From the NCBI GenBank assembly GCA_016234445.1, contig JACRBT010000006.1, positions 1-56,622 on the forward strand: 56,622 nt of DNA, in the 5' to 3' direction. Position 1 is the stretch's first letter, and the number at the start of each line of letters is the position of its first letter. The notes under the pieces are model-generated. The model saw nothing but the letters and a program-made list of their open reading frames with translations, was not told the origin of the DNA and ran no database searches. Both the position numbers and the translations under genes were made by a program. The stretch is from Chloroflexota bacterium (lineage in GTDB: Bacteria > Chloroflexota > Dehalococcoidia > Tepidiformales > Tepidiformaceae). Shown here one piece after another: positions 2,497 to 43,769 of this stretch.

Positions 2497-3210
2497 GTGA
2501 GCAGGATCGCCATCTTCGCCGCCGTCGCCGGCCTCTTCCTCCTGACCCGCTGCTACACGGAGGGCGCGCCGGCCATCGTCGACCAGTTCATCCCCAGCGG
2601 CGCCGTCGCCGCGCCGGCGCCGGACGTCTCGACGATCGGCACGCCCGCGGCCACGGCCCTCCCCGAGACCGACCTCACGACCTGGTTCGCCGCCGATGCC
2701 ACCGATCCCTACGCCCCCACGACCTGGTCCGCCGTCTCCGCCTACATGGCCGAGGCAGGCACCCGGGCCGGCTGGAGCGAAGTCTGCAAGCAGGCAAGCG
2801 ACGCCGCGGGAGGCGACCGCGCCGCCAACCCCGCCCTCGGCGCCATCGCCTGCAGCGACGACCCCTCGGTCACGCTCGTCCAGCGCTTCGCCGTTGGGCT
2901 GCTGGCGATGCGGGCGGAGGTAGCGCTGTTCATCCGGGCCGTGCCGGGCCACAGCATCCCGGGCATTTCCGGCCGCCAGGGGGAACTGCGGGTGATGTGC
3001 GGCTTCGAGGCGGTGGCATCGCAGGGGGGCGCCGATTCGGTTTACGGGCAGGCCTGCGCCTCGGCCATGGAAACCGCCTACCTCGCCGGGGACCCCGCCG
3101 CCACCTTCATCACCCTCGCCACCGCCTACGACGCCATCGCCGCGGAGATCGCCACGCGGTCACCGAAGACCGCGCCGGAGCCGGCGTGGTTCGATGGCGG
3201 GAAGGACTGA
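2497..3210 (+). CDS. Small secreted or membrane-anchored protein of unknown function
   Basis: A 237-residue protein starting at GTG 2497; the frame is open further upstream (ATG 2407), but the GTG start places a hydrophobic segment (RIAIFAAVAGLFLLT) at the extreme N-terminus, as expected for a signal peptide. A Cys follows it (LLTRCY), but Arg just before the Cys makes a lipobox unlikely. The mature part is Ala-rich, mostly helical in appearance, with four further Cys. I recognise no family. Its stop codon lies inside the first unit of a 7-bp repeat array and it converges on the TetR gene. Confidence 0.6.
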   Translation: MSRIAIFAAVAGLFLLTRCYTEGAPAIVDQFIPSGAVAAPAPDVSTIGTPAATALPETDLTTWFAADATDPYAPTTWSAVSAYMAEAGTRAGWSEVCKQASDAAGGDRAANPALGAIACSDDPSVTLVQRFAVGLLAMRAEVALFIRAVPGHSIPGISGRQGELRVMCGFEAVASQGGADSVYGQACASAMETAYLAGDPAATFITLATAYDAIAAEIATRSPKTAPEPAWFDGGKD

Positions 3211-3329
3211 GGACTTAGGACTGAGGACTGAGGACTGAGGATTGAGGACTGAGGACTGAGGACTGAGGATTGAGGACTGAGGACTTGGGACTTGGCACTG
3301 AGCACTGAGCACTCAGCACTCAGCACTCG
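3204..3329. repeat. Heptanucleotide tandem repeat, 18 units
   Basis: Eighteen consecutive 7-mers: mainly GGACTGA with GGACTTA, GGATTGA and GGACTTG variants, drifting to GCACTGA, GCACTCA and GCACTCG at the right end. The first unit contains the TGA stop of the upstream gene and the last ends 5 bp before the stop of the convergent TetR gene. The GCACTGA/GCACTCA end is partly self-complementary and could fold. Confidence 0.9.
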
Positions 3330-28361: not shown

Positions 28362-28396
28362 TTCCGATTTCCGATTTCTGATTTTCGATTTCCGAG
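28362..28396. repeat. Heptanucleotide tandem repeat, 5 units
   Basis: TTCCGAT, TTCCGAT, TTCTGAT, TTTCGAT, TTCCGAG in perfect register, 99 bp from the NAT start and 91 bp from the MmeI-like gene. Confidence 0.8.
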
Positions 28397-28486: not shown

Positions 28487-31327
28487 ATGCAGGCAGCTGA
28501 CTTCGTCGCGAAGTGGCGAGCGTCTCAACAGAAAGAGTCCGCCGCCTACGTCTCCCATTTCGAAGACCTCTGCCGCCTTGTCGGCCACGAAACGCCGATC
28601 GAGACTGACCCCTCGGGCGGCTTCTTCTGTTACCAGAAGGGCGTGACGAAGGAGTCCGGCAGGCAGGGCTTTGCTGACGTCTGGCTCCGGCGCCACTTCG
28701 GCTGGGAGTACAAGAGCAAGGGCGGCGACCTCGAAGCGGCCTACCGCCAGCTCCTCCAGTACCGCGACAACCTCGAGAACCCACCGTTGCTGATCGTCTG
28801 CGACTTCGACCGGATCGAGATCCGGACCAACTTCACCGGGACGGTCTCCCGCAAGTTCACGATCACCCTCGACGACATCCTCTCCGGCGAACCGCTTGCC
28901 GGGACGGGCCTGACGCCGTTTCAGGTGCTCAAAGCCTGCTTCGAGGAGCCGGACGACCTCCGCCCCAAGCAGACCACCGAGGGGCTGACGAAGGACGCGG
29001 CCGACCGCCTCGGGGCTGTGGCCGAGAGCCTGCGGGCCTTCCGCAAGCCCCAGTACGACCCGGTGGCGCGAGAGTATCCGCGGTACTACACCGACGACGA
29101 GATCGCCAGGTACCTCTCCAAGCTGATCTTCTGCATGTTCGCGAGTGACGTTGGCTTGCTCCCCCGGGGCATCGTCGGGCGCCTCATCGACAACTACGGC
29201 AACCTCGCACCGGTCTTTGCCGCGCGGATGTGCGAGCTCTTCGAAAAGATGAGCACCGGGGGGGACTTTGGGGTCGACCGGATCTCCTACTTCAACGGCG
29301 GCCTCTTCACCGACACCGCGGCGCTGGAGATCGACTCCGACAACCTCCGCGCCCTCCGCCGCGCCGACGAACTGGACTGGACCGACGTCGAGCCCTCGAT
29401 CTTCGGGACGCTGTTCGAGCGGATACTCGACCCGGCGAAGCGCAGCCAGCTCGGCAAGCATTACACCTCGCGGGAGGACATAGAGCGGATCGTGACGCCC
29501 GTCTTGATGTGGCCGTTAGAACGGGAGTGGGAGGCGCTCCAAAAGGAGGCCGCGCCGCTGCAACGCTGGGACACCGAAACGGGGGTGCGCCGCCAACAGC
29601 ACCGCGAAACCCTGAAAGCCAAGCTCGACGGCTTCCTCGACCGTCTCGGCGCGATCAAAGTGCTCGACCCCGCCTGCGGCTCCGGGAACTTCCTCTACGT
29701 CAGCCTGGCGATGCTGAAGACACTGGAGCGGCAGGTCATCGCCTACGGGGCCACGTGGGGGATCACGGGGCTGGAGCCGCGCGTGCACCCCCGCCAGATG
29801 TACGGCATCGAGATCAACGACTACGCCCACGAGCTCTCCAGCATCGTCGTCTGGATCGGCTACCTCCAGTGGAAGCACCGCAACGGCATCCCCTTCGAGA
29901 CGGAAGTCCCGGTCCTCCAGAAGCTGGACAACATCCACCTCATGGACGCGATCATCTCCCTTCCCCCTTCTCCGTCCTCCCTTGTCCCCCAGGAGCCGGA
30001 ATGGCCGGAGGCTGACGTGATCGTGGGGAACCCGCCGTTCCTCGGCGGGAAGCGGCTCCGCACCGAACTCGGCGACAGCTACGTGGACGGGATGTTCCGG
30101 CTTTACGACGGCCGTGTGCGGCGCGAGTCCGACCTCTGCTGCTACTGGTTCGAGAAGGCGCGGGCGATGGTCGAGTCTGGGAAGGTGAAGCGCGCCGGCC
30201 TGCTCGCGACCCAGGCCATCCGGCGCGGGGCGAACCGGGAGACCCTGCGCCGGATCAAGGAGTCGGGAGACCTGTTCTACGCCGACTCCGACCGGCCGTG
30301 GGTACTGGACGGGGCGGCAATCCGGGTGTCTATGGTGGGATTCGACGCGGGGACCGAGGCTCGGCGGGTGCTCGACGGACAGCCGGTGGAAGGCATTAAC
30401 GCCGACCTGACGAGCCAAACGGACCTGACCCGGGCGCGGCGGCTGAAGGAGAACCTTGGCATCTCCTTCATGGGCGACACGAAAGTCGGTCCGTTCGAGA
30501 TCGACGAAGCCACCGCCAGCAAGATGCTCGCGGCGCCCAATCCGCACAGGAAGCCGAACAGCGACGTTGTCCGGCCGTGGGTGAACGGGCTCGACATCAC
30601 CCGGCGCCCCCGCCATATGTGGATCATTGACTTCCCCCCGGGGATGACGGAGGCGGAAGCGGCCTTCTACGAGGCGCCGTTCCTTCATGTGTCGCTGTTC
30701 GTCAGGCCCATGCGGGCGGTCGCCAAGTCCGGCGACGCGACCGGCGTGCCATGGTGGATTCACCAGCGGCCGCGGCCGGAAATGCGGGCGGCGTTCGCAT
30801 CGTTGGACCGATTCCTGTGCACATCGCGAGTGTCGAAACATCGGATCTTCATCTGGGTTCCCACGGCGACGCTACCTGACAGCCGCGTCTACGCTTTCGC
30901 CCGCGACGATGACTACTTCGCCGGAGTGCTTCAATCCAGGATCCACGACGTGTGGAGCTTGCACACCGGTTCGACTCACGGCGACGGGTCGACCGGCGGT
31001 CGACCGGTCTACAACAACACTACCTGCTTCGAGACGTTCCCCTTCCCGCGGCCAACGCCGGCGCAGGAAGCGGCCATCGCCTCGGCTGCCGCGGAGCTGA
31101 ACCAGCTACGGGAGAACTGGCTGAACCCGCCCGGCCTCGCGGAGGAGGAATTGAAGAAGCGGACCTTGACGGCCTTCTACAGCAACCCTCCAACGTGGCT
31201 TCCTTATGAGCAGAGGAAGCTGGACGAGGCCGTCTTCGCCGCCTACGGCTGGCCCCCAACCCTCTCCGACGGGGACATCCTCGCGCGCCTGCTAGCGCTG
31301 AACCTGGAGCGTGAGGCGGTGCCGTGA
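28487..31327 (+). CDS. MmeI-like single-chain restriction-modification enzyme (type IIL)
   Basis: A 946-residue fused nuclease-methyltransferase. The N-terminal domain carries a PD-(D/E)xK type site: FADVW (D64), then GWEYKSK (E74, K76). A helical spacer follows (about 150-380; YTDDEIARYLSKLIFCMFA). The adenine methyltransferase has SAM motif I VLDPACGSGNFLYVSL (from residue 392) and catalytic motif IV NPPF (515-518). The last about 300 residues, with HGDGSTGGRPVYNNTTCFETFPFP, correspond to the target-recognition and C-terminal domains of MmeI relatives. One polypeptide cuts and protects, so no separate partner is needed. All catalytic motifs look intact. ATG 28487 is leaderless in form. Confidence 0.92.
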   Translation: MQAADFVAKWRASQQKESAAYVSHFEDLCRLVGHETPIETDPSGGFFCYQKGVTKESGRQGFADVWLRRHFGWEYKSKGGDLEAAYRQLLQYRDNLENPPLLIVCDFDRIEIRTNFTGTVSRKFTITLDDILSGEPLAGTGLTPFQVLKACFEEPDDLRPKQTTEGLTKDAADRLGAVAESLRAFRKPQYDPVAREYPRYYTDDEIARYLSKLIFCMFASDVGLLPRGIVGRLIDNYGNLAPVFAARMCELFEKMSTGGDFGVDRISYFNGGLFTDTAALEIDSDNLRALRRADELDWTDVEPSIFGTLFERILDPAKRSQLGKHYTSREDIERIVTPVLMWPLEREWEALQKEAAPLQRWDTETGVRRQQHRETLKAKLDGFLDRLGAIKVLDPACGSGNFLYVSLAMLKTLERQVIAYGATWGITGLEPRVHPRQMYGIEINDYAHELSSIVVWIGYLQWKHRNGIPFETEVPVLQKLDNIHLMDAIISLPPSPSSLVPQEPEWPEADVIVGNPPFLGGKRLRTELGDSYVDGMFRLYDGRVRRESDLCCYWFEKARAMVESGKVKRAGLLATQAIRRGANRETLRRIKESGDLFYADSDRPWVLDGAAIRVSMVGFDAGTEARRVLDGQPVEGINADLTSQTDLTRARRLKENLGISFMGDTKVGPFEIDEATASKMLAAPNPHRKPNSDVVRPWVNGLDITRRPRHMWIIDFPPGMTEAEAAFYEAPFLHVSLFVRPMRAVAKSGDATGVPWWIHQRPRPEMRAAFASLDRFLCTSRVSKHRIFIWVPTATLPDSRVYAFARDDDYFAGVLQSRIHDVWSLHTGSTHGDGSTGGRPVYNNTTCFETFPFPRPTPAQEAAIASAAAELNQLRENWLNPPGLAEEELKKRTLTAFYSNPPTWLPYEQRKLDEAVFAAYGWPPTLSDGDILARLLALNLEREAVP

Positions 31328-33121: not shown

Positions 33122-33187
33122 GGCTGTTAGCTGTTAGCCGTTAGCTGTTAGCACTCGGACCTCGGGCCTCGGACCTCGGAACTCCCC
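33122..33187. repeat. Compound heptanucleotide tandem repeat
   Basis: GGCTGTT, AGCTGTT, AGCCGTT, AGCTGTT (33122-33149), AGC, then ACTCGGA, CCTCGGG, CCTCGGA, CCTCGGA, ACTCCCC (33153-33187). It begins 4 bp after the zinc-finger gene's stop codon and joins two different unit types. Confidence 0.85.
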
Positions 33188-37976: not shown

Positions 37977-40900
37977 TCAGCGCCTCGGCGCGGCCGGCGG
38001 CGATGATGCCGCACCGCCGCGCGGCGGTCTCGGCGCGGGCGGCCCTGGTGGCTGGCCGCCGCCCTCTTCGCTCCCTTCGATCCACCAGTGGCCGATGCGG
38101 AGACGTGTCCGGTCCCACCATTCGCGGGCGGAGAGGAGGAGCACCCCGAAGCCCAGGAGGATGAGGCCCGCGATGCCCAAGGTCAGCCAGTAGGGAAGCC
38201 TGCCCTGGCCGGTAGAGAAGTAGCGGACGCCAATGCCGCCGATCGTCAGCACGCCGGCGACCACGAGCCATCGCTGGGAGAGCGCGAACCCGGCCGCGAG
38301 GAGGAGGAAGGATTCGGCGATGAGCACGAGCCCCCACCTGTCGCCGCCGGGGGAGAGTGCCTGTTCGGCGCCGGGCAGGACGAGGACGGCGGCGCCCCCG
38401 GCGATGAGGGTCTCGTGGAGGTACATGTGGCGGCCGAAGAGCTCGCTGCTCTGGCGGTAGGTCATCCCCAGGGCCATGAGGTAGATCGCGAGCGGCGCGG
38501 TGTAGGCCTGGACGTTTTCGGGCTGGAAAGTGGCGATCGCGAATTCGAGGCCGAGCATCGCAGCCGCCGTGCCGGAAACCGCCAGGAGCCGCAGCCGAAG
38601 CCGCATGCCTTCGAGGAAGAGCGCGGCGCCAAAGGCGACAACGATGCCCGCCATCGCCGCCCATTCGTCGGTCGTCGCGATGTCGGGCCTGGCGGCGGGC
38701 GAGAGCCGGGCGAGTTCGTCACTGCGCCAGTTGAGCGCCCCAAGCACGACCGCAAGCGCGAGCCCGCCCGGGAGCGTCGACAGGCCGGTGATGACCCGGC
38801 TTCGTTCCGACCGCCCGTAGTCGCGCCAGCGGGTGAGGGCGGCGGCCATGGCGATGGCCAACGCGGCATAGAACACCGCCAACGACCAGACCGGCCAGTC
38901 GCGGGCGGCCCACGTGTAGGCGAGGGTCCCGGCGGTGCCGGCGGCGACGGGCGCTGCGGCGATCCAGCGGCGGGTGGCGGCGATCGAGACGGCCGAGGCG
39001 GCTGTCCAGGCCCCGAGCATGAACGCGGACTGGCCGTACTCGTCGCGGGCGAGGAAGAGGGCGAGGCCGAGGCCCGTGGCGGCGACCGGGACGAGAACGC
39101 CCGTGAGCGACCGTTCGAGGCGGGCGAAGGCAGCGATGCCCAGCCATGCGGCCGTACCGATGGCCGCATAGGTCCAGGCGCCCTCAGCCGCTTCGAGGTC
39201 GAGGGCAAGGTTCAGGTAGGCGGCGGCGCCGAAGAAGAGGGCGGAGCCTGCACGGCCGAGCATCTGGCGTTCGACAAGGAGCGCGCGCGGTGTCAGCTCC
39301 AGTCCGTAGCGGGCAGCGAGAGCGCCGTGGGTCCGGGCGGCGGCCCAGGTGAAGGCAAGCCCGGCGAGAGCAAAGGCGATCGTCCCCGCCCAGGGGGTGT
39401 CGACGTATTCGCCGACGAACCCGAGCGGGACGAGGGCCAGGGCCAGGGCGTAGGGCCAGCCCAAAGCTGCGAGGGACGGGCGGTTTCGCCACCAGAGTTC
39501 GGATGCAGCGATGGCGAGACCGGCCGCGACCGGCGGCCAGGCCCAGTGCGCCGCGGGGACGCCGCCTGCCCAGAGCGCGGTGGAGCCGGTCATGCCAGCA
39601 AGCGCGGGGACGAAGAGCCACGACCGCTCGTGGCGCGCGGGCAGGGCATCCCAGAGCGCCCCGGCCAGGACGGCGGCATAGGTCGCCGGGAGTTGCCACG
39701 GGGAGGAGTCCGGGGTGACCGCGGCGATGTGCCCGCCGGCGATCGTCGCGATGCCTGCGACGCCTGCCATCTGGCGCCAGGCGGCTTCCCGGGCGCGGTC
39801 GAGCCAGGCGAGGGCGAGGTAACCCGCACCCGTCGTCGCCGGGCCGAGGGTGAACCACTCGGGCGGGATGTCGGCTGCCGCCCAGAGGCTGGTGAAGAGC
39901 GTCGCCGAGCCGAGGATGGGGAGCGAACCCAGGACCACCGGCCACTGCCAGCGGACGTAGAGCACGGAGGCCCCGACAAACGTGAAGCCGTAGGAGAGGG
40001 GCAGGCGCCAGCGCTCTTCGCCTTCGGCCACCCAGCCATGGGAAAGGGAGATGGCGGCGGCCGCGAACAACGCCGCGGCCAGTGAACGTTCCTGCACCTC
40101 TTTCGACGGGAGCATCGCGAGGGCCAGGTAGCCGGCGGAGGCGACGAGGAGGCCGGCCTGTTGCCACGAGGCTTCGCTGACGTCCAGCGTCCACCACAAG
40201 GTGCTCGACGTGGTCGCGGCTACGAGCACGGGCAGCGCGTCGAGGGCAGCGTCCCAGCGCCAGCGGGCGTAAAGGAGCCCGGCGCCGGCCGTCGTGAAGC
40301 CGTAGGAGAGGGGCAGCCGCCAGCGGTCTTCGCCCTCGGCCACCAGGCTGTGTGAGAGCGCGATGGCACTGGCGGCGAACAGCGCCGCGGCCACCGCCCG
40401 GTGCTGGACCTCTCTTGAGGGGAGCATGACCAGGGCGAGGTAACCGCCGGAGGCGACAAGGAGGAAGGTCTGCTGCCAGGAACCGTCACTGACGTCGAGC
40501 GTCCACCACATGGTGCTCGACGTCGTCGCGGCGACGAGCACGGGCAGCGCGTCGAGGGCGGCGTCCCAGCGCCAGCGCAGCCAGAGGACCCCGGCGCCGG
40601 CCGTCGTGAAGCCGTAGGAGAGGGGCAGCCGCCAGCGCTCCTCGCCCTCCAGCACGAGCGTGTGCGAAAGCCAGATCGCCCCACCGGCGAAGGCGGCCGC
40701 CACGAAGGCGCGGCCCTGCACTTCCCTCGACGGGAGCATGGCCAGGGACAGGTAGCCGCCTGAGGCAACAAGGAGGCCGGTCTGCTGCCATGAGCCTTCG
40801 CTGACGTCGAGCGTCCACCACATCGTGCTCGACGTGGTCGCGGCTACCAGGACGGGCAGGGCGTCAAGGGCGGCGTCCCAGCGCCAGCGCAGCCAGAGGA

Positions 40901-43589
40901 CCCCGGCGCCGGCCGTCGAAAAGCCGTAGGCGAGGGGCAGCCGCCAGCGCTCCTCGCCTTCGGCCACCAGGCTGTGCGAGAGTGCGATGGCACTGCCGGC
41001 GAACAGCGCCGCGGCCACCGCCCGGTGCTGGACCTCTCTTGAGGGGAGCATGGACAGGGCCAGGTAACCGGCGGAGGCCACAAGGAGGCCGGTCTGCTGC
41101 CATGAGCCTTCGCTGACGTCGAGCGTCCACCACATGGTGCTCGATGTCGTCGCGGCGACGAGCACGGGCAGGGCGTCGAGGGCGACGTCCCAGCGCCAGC
41201 GGGCGTAAAGCAGCCCGGCGCCGGCCGTCGTGAAGCCGTAAGAGAGGGGCAGCCGCCAGCGCTCCTCGCCCTCGACGACGAGCGTGTGGGAGAGCCAGAT
41301 CGCCCCACCGGCGAAGGCGGCCGCCGCGAAGGCGCGAGCCGGCACTTCCTTTGAGGGGAGCATGGCCAGGGCGAGGTAACCGCCGGAGGCCACCAGCAGG
41401 AAGGTCTGCTGCCACGAGCCTTCACTGACGTCGAGCGTCCACCACAGCGTGCTCGAAGTCGTCGCAGCGACAAGCACGGGCAGGGCGTCGAGGGCAGCGT
41501 CCCAGCGCCACCGGGCGTAAAGCAGCGCGGCGCCGGCGGTCGTGAAGCCGTACGAAAGGGGCAGGCGCCAGCGCTCTTCGCCCTCGGCGACGAGCGTGTG
41601 CGAAAGCCAGATCGCCCCACCGGCGAAAGCGGCCGCCGCGAAGGCGCGAGCCTGCACTTCCTTCGAGGGGAGCATGGCAAGGGCGAGATAACCGGCGGAG
41701 GCGACGAGGAGGCCGGTCTGCTGCCAGCTGCCCTCGCTCACTTCAAGCGCCCACCAGGTCGTGCTCGACGTGGTCGCGGCGACGAGCACGGGCAGCGAAT
41801 CGAGGACGGCGTCCCAGCGCCAGCGCAGCCAGAGGGCGGCGGCGCCGGCGGTCACCAGGGCGTAGGTAGCGGGCAGGCGGTAGGCGTTGTCGCCCTCGGC
41901 CACCGCGGCATGGGCCACGAGCACGGCCCCGGCGGCGAGTCCGGCGGCGAATCCCACGCGCCGAAGCGTTTCGGCCGAGCGCGGAAGCATCGCCAACGCC
42001 AGGTAGCCGGCCGAAGCGACGGCAAGCCAGAGCTCGCCCCATGTCTCCGGGCGAGCGTCCCATCCGGCCCAGGACGTGCTCGCGACGAACGACGCGGCGG
42101 CGGGCGGGACCATGTCGACAAGGAGCTGCCAGCGCCATCGCCACCACGCGGCGACGGTCCCGGCGGTGATGCCGCCGTAGACAACGGGCAGGAGCGCGCG
42201 CGGGTCGCCGTCGGCGCAGCTGCCATGCGCTCCCACGGCGGCGACGGCCGCCGCGACGCCGGCGGTGACGGCCCAGCCGCGGGCGCGGTCCGGATGGAAG
42301 TGGGCGATGACGAGGTATCCCGCGGCGGCGGCGAGGGCCCAGGATGCAGCCCAGTCGACTTCGCCGACGGAAGGGACAGTCGCGGCCCAGGCCGCGGAGC
42401 CCGCCGTGGCCGCCGCCGACACCGGCAAAAGCGCCCAGGCCCGGACTTTCCGCGTCGCGTGGACGCTGACAATCACGGCGGCGAGGAGGAAGGCGTAGGT
42501 GATTGGGAGCTGCCAGCGGGCGACGTCATCGAGCAGGGCCGCGCCCTGGGCGAAGACCACCGACGGGAACACGAGCACGACGGCGGCCACTTCGGCCCAC
42601 TTCTGGTACGTCTTGTAGCGGTAGGTGCCAAGGGCGTTGGCGAGCGGGGCGAGGACGGCAAACCAGGCCCCGTACCATTCGCCCCCGATGTCGATGGTGG
42701 CGCCGAGCGAACCCCATGCCATCAGCGCGGCAATCGTCGCGGGGACGGCGTAGAGGCGGCCGTAGCCTGTGCGGACGAGGAGGAAGTAGAGCCCGGAAGT
42801 GGTCGTGCTGCCGGCGAGCCACGTCCAGGCGATGGGGACGTCGCGCTCGTCGAGGACGCGGACGTAGAGCATGAGGAACGTGAGCGGCGTCAGCAGCGCC
42901 GCGAGGCCGACGAACACGGGGCCAGCCTCGCGGATGCGGTCCCAGCGGCGGACGGAAAAGCCGAGCACGAGGAAGGCGAGCGCATAGGCGCCAAGGATGG
43001 AAGTCCGCGTGACGCCGCTGATGGCCGAACCCGACCAGTTCACGAAGATGAGGGCGGCGATCGACATGAGGAAGGCGCCGAGGTAGAGGAGCAGGTCGGC
43101 CTGGCGCTTCGCCGCCCAGTTGAAGACGACGCGGGGCGCGCTTGGCCCCGGGGGTCGAGGCGGCTTCGCGGGGCGAGCGGGGGGCGGGGGAACGGGAGGG
43201 CGGGGCAGGGCCGGACTCGCGGCGGGAGCCTGGGCCGCGGCGAGCGCCGGAGCGGGCGCCGGGACCGCCTTCGGGGGGATCGCGGCGGCCGGGTGGGGCG
43301 GCGGGGCCGGGACAGGAGCGGGCGCCGGCGCGGCTGCCGGGGCAGGGTGACGGAGCTCCTCCAGCCGGGCTTCGTAGAGGCGGACGAGGCGGAGGTAGAC
43401 GTCGTCGTCGATCGTCTTGTCGCGGTGGCGGGCCTGGATGTCGTGGAGGATGAGCGCGAGCGTATAGAAGGTGTTCGCCGCCGGCTGGAGCCAGGCGGCG
43501 GAGCAATCGGGACAGCGCGGCTCCGATTCGCTGAAGCGCGCGCCGCAGAGGGAACAGTAGCGGGGATAGAGCGAGTCGCCGGGTTGCAT
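37977..43589 (-). CDS. Giant zinc-ribbon multi-pass membrane protein with eight 104-residue repeats
   Basis: An 1870-residue protein. Residues 12-29 form a zinc ribbon (C12, C15, C26, C29: YCSLCG ... CPDC). A helix follows (to about 70), then a Pro/Ala-rich linker (about 75-165). The rest is almost continuous membrane helices, probably more than 40. Residues about 485-1316 are eight tandem 104-residue repeats, six nearly identical; each looks like four TM helices. The architecture (ribbon, Pro/Ala linker, many TMs) resembles the SCO7613-type membrane proteins of Streptomyces, whose function is unknown. ATG 43589 follows GGAGGGCCGC; an upstream in-frame ATG (43640) is less likely. A short charged, Pro-rich tail ends the protein. 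Confidence 0.85.
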   Translation of the reverse strand: MQPGDSLYPRYCSLCGARFSESEPRCPDCSAAWLQPAANTFYTLALILHDIQARHRDKTIDDDVYLRLVRLYEARLEELRHPAPAAAPAPAPVPAPPPHPAAAIPPKAVPAPAPALAAAQAPAASPALPRPPVPPPPARPAKPPRPPGPSAPRVVFNWAAKRQADLLLYLGAFLMSIAALIFVNWSGSAISGVTRTSILGAYALAFLVLGFSVRRWDRIREAGPVFVGLAALLTPLTFLMLYVRVLDERDVPIAWTWLAGSTTTSGLYFLLVRTGYGRLYAVPATIAALMAWGSLGATIDIGGEWYGAWFAVLAPLANALGTYRYKTYQKWAEVAAVVLVFPSVVFAQGAALLDDVARWQLPITYAFLLAAVIVSVHATRKVRAWALLPVSAAATAGSAAWAATVPSVGEVDWAASWALAAAAGYLVIAHFHPDRARGWAVTAGVAAAVAAVGAHGSCADGDPRALLPVVYGGITAGTVAAWWRWRWQLLVDMVPPAAASFVASTSWAGWDARPETWGELWLAVASAGYLALAMLPRSAETLRRVGFAAGLAAGAVLVAHAAVAEGDNAYRLPATYALVTAGAAALWLRWRWDAVLDSLPVLVAATTSSTTWWALEVSEGSWQQTGLLVASAGYLALAMLPSKEVQARAFAAAAFAGGAIWLSHTLVAEGEERWRLPLSYGFTTAGAALLYARWRWDAALDALPVLVAATTSSTLWWTLDVSEGSWQQTFLLVASGGYLALAMLPSKEVPARAFAAAAFAGGAIWLSHTLVVEGEERWRLPLSYGFTTAGAGLLYARWRWDVALDALPVLVAATTSSTMWWTLDVSEGSWQQTGLLVASAGYLALSMLPSREVQHRAVAAALFAGSAIALSHSLVAEGEERWRLPLAYGFSTAGAGVLWLRWRWDAALDALPVLVAATTSSTMWWTLDVSEGSWQQTGLLVASGGYLSLAMLPSREVQGRAFVAAAFAGGAIWLSHTLVLEGEERWRLPLSYGFTTAGAGVLWLRWRWDAALDALPVLVAATTSSTMWWTLDVSDGSWQQTFLLVASGGYLALVMLPSREVQHRAVAAALFAASAIALSHSLVAEGEDRWRLPLSYGFTTAGAGLLYARWRWDAALDALPVLVAATTSSTLWWTLDVSEASWQQAGLLVASAGYLALAMLPSKEVQERSLAAALFAAAAISLSHGWVAEGEERWRLPLSYGFTFVGASVLYVRWQWPVVLGSLPILGSATLFTSLWAAADIPPEWFTLGPATTGAGYLALAWLDRAREAAWRQMAGVAGIATIAGGHIAAVTPDSSPWQLPATYAAVLAGALWDALPARHERSWLFVPALAGMTGSTALWAGGVPAAHWAWPPVAAGLAIAASELWWRNRPSLAALGWPYALALALVPLGFVGEYVDTPWAGTIAFALAGLAFTWAAARTHGALAARYGLELTPRALLVERQMLGRAGSALFFGAAAYLNLALDLEAAEGAWTYAAIGTAAWLGIAAFARLERSLTGVLVPVAATGLGLALFLARDEYGQSAFMLGAWTAASAVSIAATRRWIAAAPVAAGTAGTLAYTWAARDWPVWSLAVFYAALAIAMAAALTRWRDYGRSERSRVITGLSTLPGGLALAVVLGALNWRSDELARLSPAARPDIATTDEWAAMAGIVVAFGAALFLEGMRLRLRLLAVSGTAAAMLGLEFAIATFQPENVQAYTAPLAIYLMALGMTYRQSSELFGRHMYLHETLIAGGAAVLVLPGAEQALSPGGDRWGLVLIAESFLLLAAGFALSQRWLVVAGVLTIGGIGVRYFSTGQGRLPYWLTLGIAGLILLGFGVLLLSAREWWDRTRLRIGHWWIEGSEEGGGQPPGPPAPRPPRGGAASSPPAAPRR
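39642..42137 (-). repeat. Eight tandem 312-bp coding repeats
   Basis: The period is exactly 312 bp: GTCCACC-type anchors fall at 39877, 40189, 40501, 40813, 41125, 41437, 41749 and 42061. Units begin with R-W-R-W. Units 2-7 (41825 down to 39954) are nearly identical in DNA; the outer two are diverged. Alternate units share variants (for example GTGCTGGACCTCTCTTGAGG near 40410 and 41034, 624 bp apart), pointing to duplication of two-unit blocks. Confidence 0.92.
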
Positions 43590-43769
43590 GCGGCCCTCCG
43601 CCGGGCACGGCGCGCCATGCGCGCGGCCCTGCGCCGCCATCCTACGCTGTCACAAACGCCATTCGCATGTACTTCCGGCCGTCTTGCAAGGGGCCGATCG
43701 GCGCAAAAGCGGGCCGCCACGCCAGCGCCGGAGTCGCGTACGATTGGCGCCGGACAGGGGAGGTGCACG

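Follow-up and report, generated by a model that had tools for sequence, protein, structure and literature searches.

How a bacterial membrane protein comes to be built from tandem copies of one membrane module, and what such an array might do, is the question raised by the gene described here. Surface and fibrous proteins are familiar cases of repeat expansion at the DNA level; in the present case such expansion produces the membrane core of a polytopic protein, and appears to have done so independently in at least five lineages, from different four-transmembrane (4-TM) segments. The gene lies on the minus strand (37977..43640) of the window, by which we mean the whole 56,622-nucleotide stretch of DNA analyzed (Chloroflexota bacterium, GCA_016234445.1, JACRBT010000006.1), which is the entire contig 11 of a 3.54-Mb draft genome in 20 contigs. 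As detailed below, the repeat is real and an artefact unlikely, and the interest of the locus lies mainly in the recurrent tandem growth of a membrane core across lineages.

Extent and identity of the 312-bp repeat

Autocorrelation across the entire protein was strongest at a lag of 104 residues (z ~10, well above chance), and the period is exact and in frame (104 aa, 312 bp), as a previous sequence-only reading of the window had proposed. At a fixed phase, eight units occupy 39651-42146, a shift of 9 bp from the interval 39642-42137 given in that reading. Units 4-9 in our numbering (39963..41834) form a core of six tandem units, detected by TRF as 5.9 copies of 312 bp with 83% matches, and share 76-90% DNA identity and 79-89% protein identity, so that their earlier description as nearly identical (there as units 2-7) was too strong. 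Of the 312 sites, 115 vary among these core units, mainly at third codon positions (68 of the 115). The flanking units 3 (41835..42146) and 10 (39651..39962) are diverged, with 21-33% amino acid identity to the core. Iterating a unit HMM over the homologs added two diverged units on the N-terminal side (unit 1, 42459..42770; unit 2, 42147..42458) and a partial unit 11 on the C-terminal side (39417..39650; a weak match of 11.3 bits), indicating that the array is about 10 units long. Autocorrelation at 52 residues was weak, and descent from a half unit of two TM helices (52 aa) is not claimed.

The sequence-only reading had also taken variants shared by alternate units as a sign that the array grew by duplication of 624-bp pairs. 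Identity between core units is 82.4% at a lag of 312 bp, 82.8% at 624 bp, and 83.3% at 936 bp, which gives no support to pairwise duplication as the general history of the array. A single dimer duplication is nevertheless plausible, given the 89% match between units 5-6 and units 7-8 over a 615-bp stretch.

The unit as a predicted four-helix membrane module

AlphaFold2 was employed to model four core units (4-7), using 40 unit-register rows drawn from the window and its homologs. The resulting model (pLDDT 91.9, pTM 0.80) displays a short N-terminal turn followed by sixteen helices of similar length, four per unit, with the units stacked as an alpha-solenoid of antiparallel helix hairpins. Across units from the whole family, charged residues make up only 0.6-1.6% of the helix cores (three of the four cores measured), and the two loops on one side contain 1.95 and 2.19 Lys plus Arg residues, compared to 0.16 and 0.77 in those on the other. 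The uncharged cores, together with the asymmetry of the loops, indicate that the 4-TM unit follows the positive-inside rule and has its two ends in the cytosol. The model and the charge distribution together identify the unit as a predicted transmembrane module of four helices, in agreement with the earlier suggestion, made from the sequence, that entire membrane modules were multiplied in tandem. The charge distribution also ruled out a soluble, TPR-like solenoid. The signature RWxW...LP...W...EW...GYL...W...AH...R..LP..Y is kept family-wide; a His in helix 3 is present in 42 of 50 internal units, while Tyr46 and two Trp residues are present in all 50. An AlphaFold2 model of the full-length minimal homolog (L032) was poor, with a pLDDT of 58 that is too low to interpret.

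A Foldseek search with the four-unit model returned no significant match (best E 0.037). When the Foldseek candidates were aligned with VIA-align, soluble alpha-solenoids were on top, including the TPR protein LGN (5a7d; Z 19.4, rmsd 20 Å) and the designed circular repeat 7rdr (Z 15.9, rmsd 11.7 Å). Since high Z values are common among helical repeats, these matches indicate the stacking arrangement only.

Age of the array and reliability of the copy number

Pairwise dS between core units ranges from 0.19 to 0.93 (median 0.55), indicating that the array is not very recent and arguing against the recent expansion proposed earlier. The corresponding dN/dS values range from 0.14 to 0.38 (median 0.20), and, as judged from these substitution rates, every pair of core units is under purifying selection. 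A PHI-type permutation analysis (p = 0.0005) revealed that site conflicts run in blocks along the unit, implying that sequence has been exchanged among units through recombination or conversion. The units are thus significant recombinant mosaics that have been partly homogenized by recombination.

It was also considered that the copy number might have been collapsed or inflated during assembly. The window is a single contig of a 20-contig draft, and its start falls inside a different tandem array, both of which lend this explanation some weight. However, exact repeats within the gene do not exceed 56 bp in length and every 77-mer is unique, so ordinary reads should resolve the array and the copy number is probably right. 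Moreover, the number of sites at which the units differ, the unbroken frame across all units, and the presence of similar arrays in independent genomes all argue against an artefact, which we consider extremely improbable and rejected on the length of the exact repeats.

The different array at the contig start consists of three 264-bp (88-aa) tandem units (3-796; 83% matches) within a minus-strand ORF (3-2030) that has no Pfam match and runs off the contig, which probably broke inside this array. Elsewhere in the window, heptanucleotide tandem repeats that are apparently intergenic were observed at 3203-3328, 28362-28395, and 33123-33152, comprising, in one example, ~16 copies of AGGACTG followed by copies of GCACTCA. 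A 946-aa MmeI-like protein (28487-31324) with N-terminal, helicase-spacer, and methyltransferase domains is a candidate fused restriction-modification enzyme.

Layout and family membership of the protein

The ORF encodes 1887 aa, or 1870 aa when counted from Met18, the latter being the length reported by the sequence-only reading, and homologs have the same ends. Hydropathy analysis detected 59-65 TM segments (~60), an approximate and threshold-dependent count that is in line with the more than 40 segments behind a zinc ribbon described previously. The zinc ribbon (43494..43562, minus strand, as are all features of the gene), predicted to be cytosolic, takes the form CxxC-x10-CxxC at aa 29-46, with C29, C32, C43, and C46 invariant in the family alignment. 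It has the two CxxC knuckles that define DZR and DZR_2 proteins, and scores 17.3 bits against Pfam DZR_2, under the cutoff of 27. A Pro/Ala-rich linker evident from the sequence (43125..43349) is followed by a conserved, DUF2157-like N-terminal 4-TM block (NWAAKRQADLLLYLGAF...EAGPVF; 42768..43109), delineated from alignments. Beyond the array lies a conserved C-terminal block (38091..39416) with ~14-18 TM segments and NVQAYTAP, HE, and AEQ motifs, which resembles SCO7613_CTERM. Both blocks are retained by members of the family, with GWAAERQADILLYVGAF in the N-terminal one and NVQAYTAP, HE, and PPAEQSF in the C-terminal one.

No Pfam or NCBIfam model matched the protein above its cutoff. It has no match to NF047321 (SCO7613_CTERM, cutoff 45 bits) at E <= 1, its closest homologs have none at E <= 0.1, and it is unmatched by DUF2157 (PF09925, gathering cutoff 32.4 bits). 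A profile of the C-terminal block built from the alignment of the window protein and nine homologs (A4), in turn, finds the remote homologs L059 (4.5e-36) and L061 (1.5e-16), which score 50.1 and 48.0 bits, respectively, against NF047321. DUF2157 matches L061 above its cutoff (37.1 bits) and L032 below it (25.0 bits), in both cases in the region corresponding to the N-terminal TM block. Transitive homology therefore places the protein, as a very large inner-membrane member, in the SCO7613/DUF2157 superfamily.

Unit number varies among relatives

The relatives are MAGs, mostly labeled as Dehalococcoidia. At the sensitivity of the profile, the gene was detected in 10 of the 38 genomes that make up the window's family, 25 of 393 sampled genomes of the class, and 14 of 400 sampled genomes of the phylum, and this patchiness within the family implies that it is dispensable in many genomes. 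Two records, L028 and L026, are titled Holophagae bacterium and Anaerolinea sp.; as both carry close homologs of the Dehalococcoidia MAG genes, and L026 falls inside the window's own family, these titles look misassigned.

The homologs range from 876 to 1920 aa, with the conserved ends separated by ~2-10 units: ~2 in L032 (876 aa), 6-8 in L031, L026, L029, L025, L027, and L028, and ~10 in L024 and the window protein. The comparison of related genomes that the sequence-only reading had called for thus reveals real differences in unit number. In the tree, the first unit forms one clade family-wide, which includes unit 1 of the window, and another clade unites the final units of the longer homologs, indicating fixed ends and a variable middle. 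Units in the middle instead form lineage-specific clades (bootstrap/aLRT), comprising units 3-9 of the window, with unit 3 sister to the core (100/94), units 5-6 of L024 (100/95), and units 3-5 of L031 (95/95). This topology shows that units 3-9 arose by tandem duplication within the window's own lineage. By comparison, the units of L025, L027, and L028 are orthologous by position, and two species of genus g7 have the same eight position-orthologous units, with L028 likewise having eight. These results imply that expansion is lineage-specific, but that unit number can also stay stable.

The genes flanking the homologs differ, with nothing consistently shared among neighbors and no operon partner or pointer to function, and a plasmid search and a scan of genome contigs with the single protein as query returned no matches. 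An additional TM hairpin precedes the zinc ribbon in L024, L026, L029, L028, L027, and L031, and is lacking in the window protein, L032, and L058-L060.

Arrays in other lineages

Tandem arrays detectable at the DNA level were also present in L024 (321 bp x 3.0), L058 (360 bp x 2.1), L069 (2481-6632; 354 bp x 3.7, inside the C-terminal block), and L074 (2499-6269; 339 bp x 3.1, 86%). The units of L058, L069, and L074 each contain four hydrophobic segments, and comparison of their profiles with that of the window family by hhalign was not significant, indicating that different 4-TM segments were multiplied. Common ancestry of the arrays in families f1, f2, f17, and f134 was rejected on these grounds. 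At least four other lineages thus appear to have made their own 4-TM arrays, some elsewhere in the protein, and we read these as apparently independent, with the tree providing direct evidence for independence only within family f1. It seems, from these sequence comparisons, that evolution repeatedly lengthens and shortens this membrane protein, providing a natural experiment in the growth of large membrane proteins through topology-preserving modules.

Possible function of the array

The fixed ends and variable middle argue that the activity of the protein would reside in its conserved ends, and that the ribbon of units would set spacing or membrane area. We tentatively favor a lineage-expanded membrane solenoid with conserved active ends, in which the array may serve as a length-variable scaffold or a sensor of membrane state. 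The units are predicted to stack as an alpha-solenoid ribbon within the membrane, each unit having its two ends in the cytosol, and because the number of helices per unit is even, gain or loss of units would leave frame and topology intact. Such a ribbon would join the two ends and might organize lipids or protein partners, and a cytosolic partner could dock at the zinc ribbon. Several observations count against this explanation: no conserved gene neighbor points to such a role, the gene is patchy in its occurrence, some helices have a low mean hydropathy (0.2-0.6), and the AlphaFold2 model covers a four-unit segment, which cannot show the whole assembly, with the model of the minimal homolog being poor.

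The strongest rival to the scaffold or sensor is neutral drift of copy number, in which in-frame 4-TM duplications that preserve topology are tolerated and the protein works in the same way at any length. The wide variation in copy number, the patchy occurrence of the gene itself, and the expansion of different segments by different lineages, as would be expected if any 4-TM stretch duplicates harmlessly, are all consistent with drift. On the other hand, purifying selection on the units (dN/dS ~0.2), the strict unit signature, and the stability of the eight position-orthologous units in the two g7 species and L028 are not readily accommodated, and we regard near-neutrality as rather unlikely, but as an explanation to be taken seriously. 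Conservation of the helix-3 His and of the Trp and Tyr residues could alternatively reflect a transporter or channel with translocation paths formed by single units, or by pairs of units, and lined by these side chains, and a role in glycerol transport has been raised for SCO7613, as discussed below. Yet no transporter family was matched in Pfam, NCBIfam, or PDB sequences, Foldseek returned nothing significant, solenoids headed the VIA-align results, and a pore number free to vary would be functionally odd, all of which makes transport improbable.

Still more doubtful is a mechanosensor resembling the Piezo blade, in which a curved arm of tandem 4-TM units would report tension to the conserved ends. 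The ~10 tandem units that precede the conserved C-terminal block recall the nine of the Piezo1 blade, but no relationship to a solved structure emerged from searches of PDB sequences at E <= 1, and Piezo was absent among the 50 matches listed by each structure search (Foldseek and VIA-align), lists that may have missed it. By analogy with the blade, it could be imagined that the protein is a bacterial transmembrane alpha-solenoid whose arm length, set by recurrent 4-TM duplication, tunes membrane sensing or shaping, a notion that we consider a long shot. Whatever the role of the array, the length variants supply a set for probing that of the uncharacterized SCO7613/DUF2157 family.

Comparison with known systems

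In architecture, the blade of Piezo1 comes closest: it is composed of nine repetitive four-TM units, or 36 TMs (PMC5880808), and, as in the window protein, tandem 4-TM repeats account for the bulk of a very large membrane protein. Homology between the two was not detected in searches of PDB sequences by phmmer and with a profile, which at E <= 1 returned only three chance matches near the zinc ribbon and linker. The window protein is bacterial, its 104-aa units retain similarity at the DNA level, and the cap, beam, and pore of Piezo were not identified in it. The TPR solenoid of LGN and the designed repeat 7rdr share with the predicted model the antiparallel stacking of hairpins, but are soluble, in contrast with the uncharged helix cores and positive-inside loops of the window protein, which is also unmatched by Pfam TPR models and does not conform to the 34-aa soluble TPR consensus.

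SCO7613 and DUF2157 are the known families to which the protein is linked by homology. A SCO7613 deletion had an effect on PHA accumulation in a study that also raised, as an untested question, a role in glycerol transport (PMC8313934). DUF2157-type TM domains have been described as sensory in Lia/PSP envelope-stress systems (PMC11237479). DUF2157 is one short domain, in contrast with the array of the window protein, and corresponds to its N-terminal TM block. Unlike the proteins matched by NF047321, the window protein carries ~10 tandem 104-aa 4-TM units, but it shares with them many TM segments, a homologous C-terminal membrane domain, and, in several relatives, an N-terminal zinc ribbon. 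Judged by this homology, the protein is most simply viewed as a member of a known family whose Chloroflexota branch is expanded.
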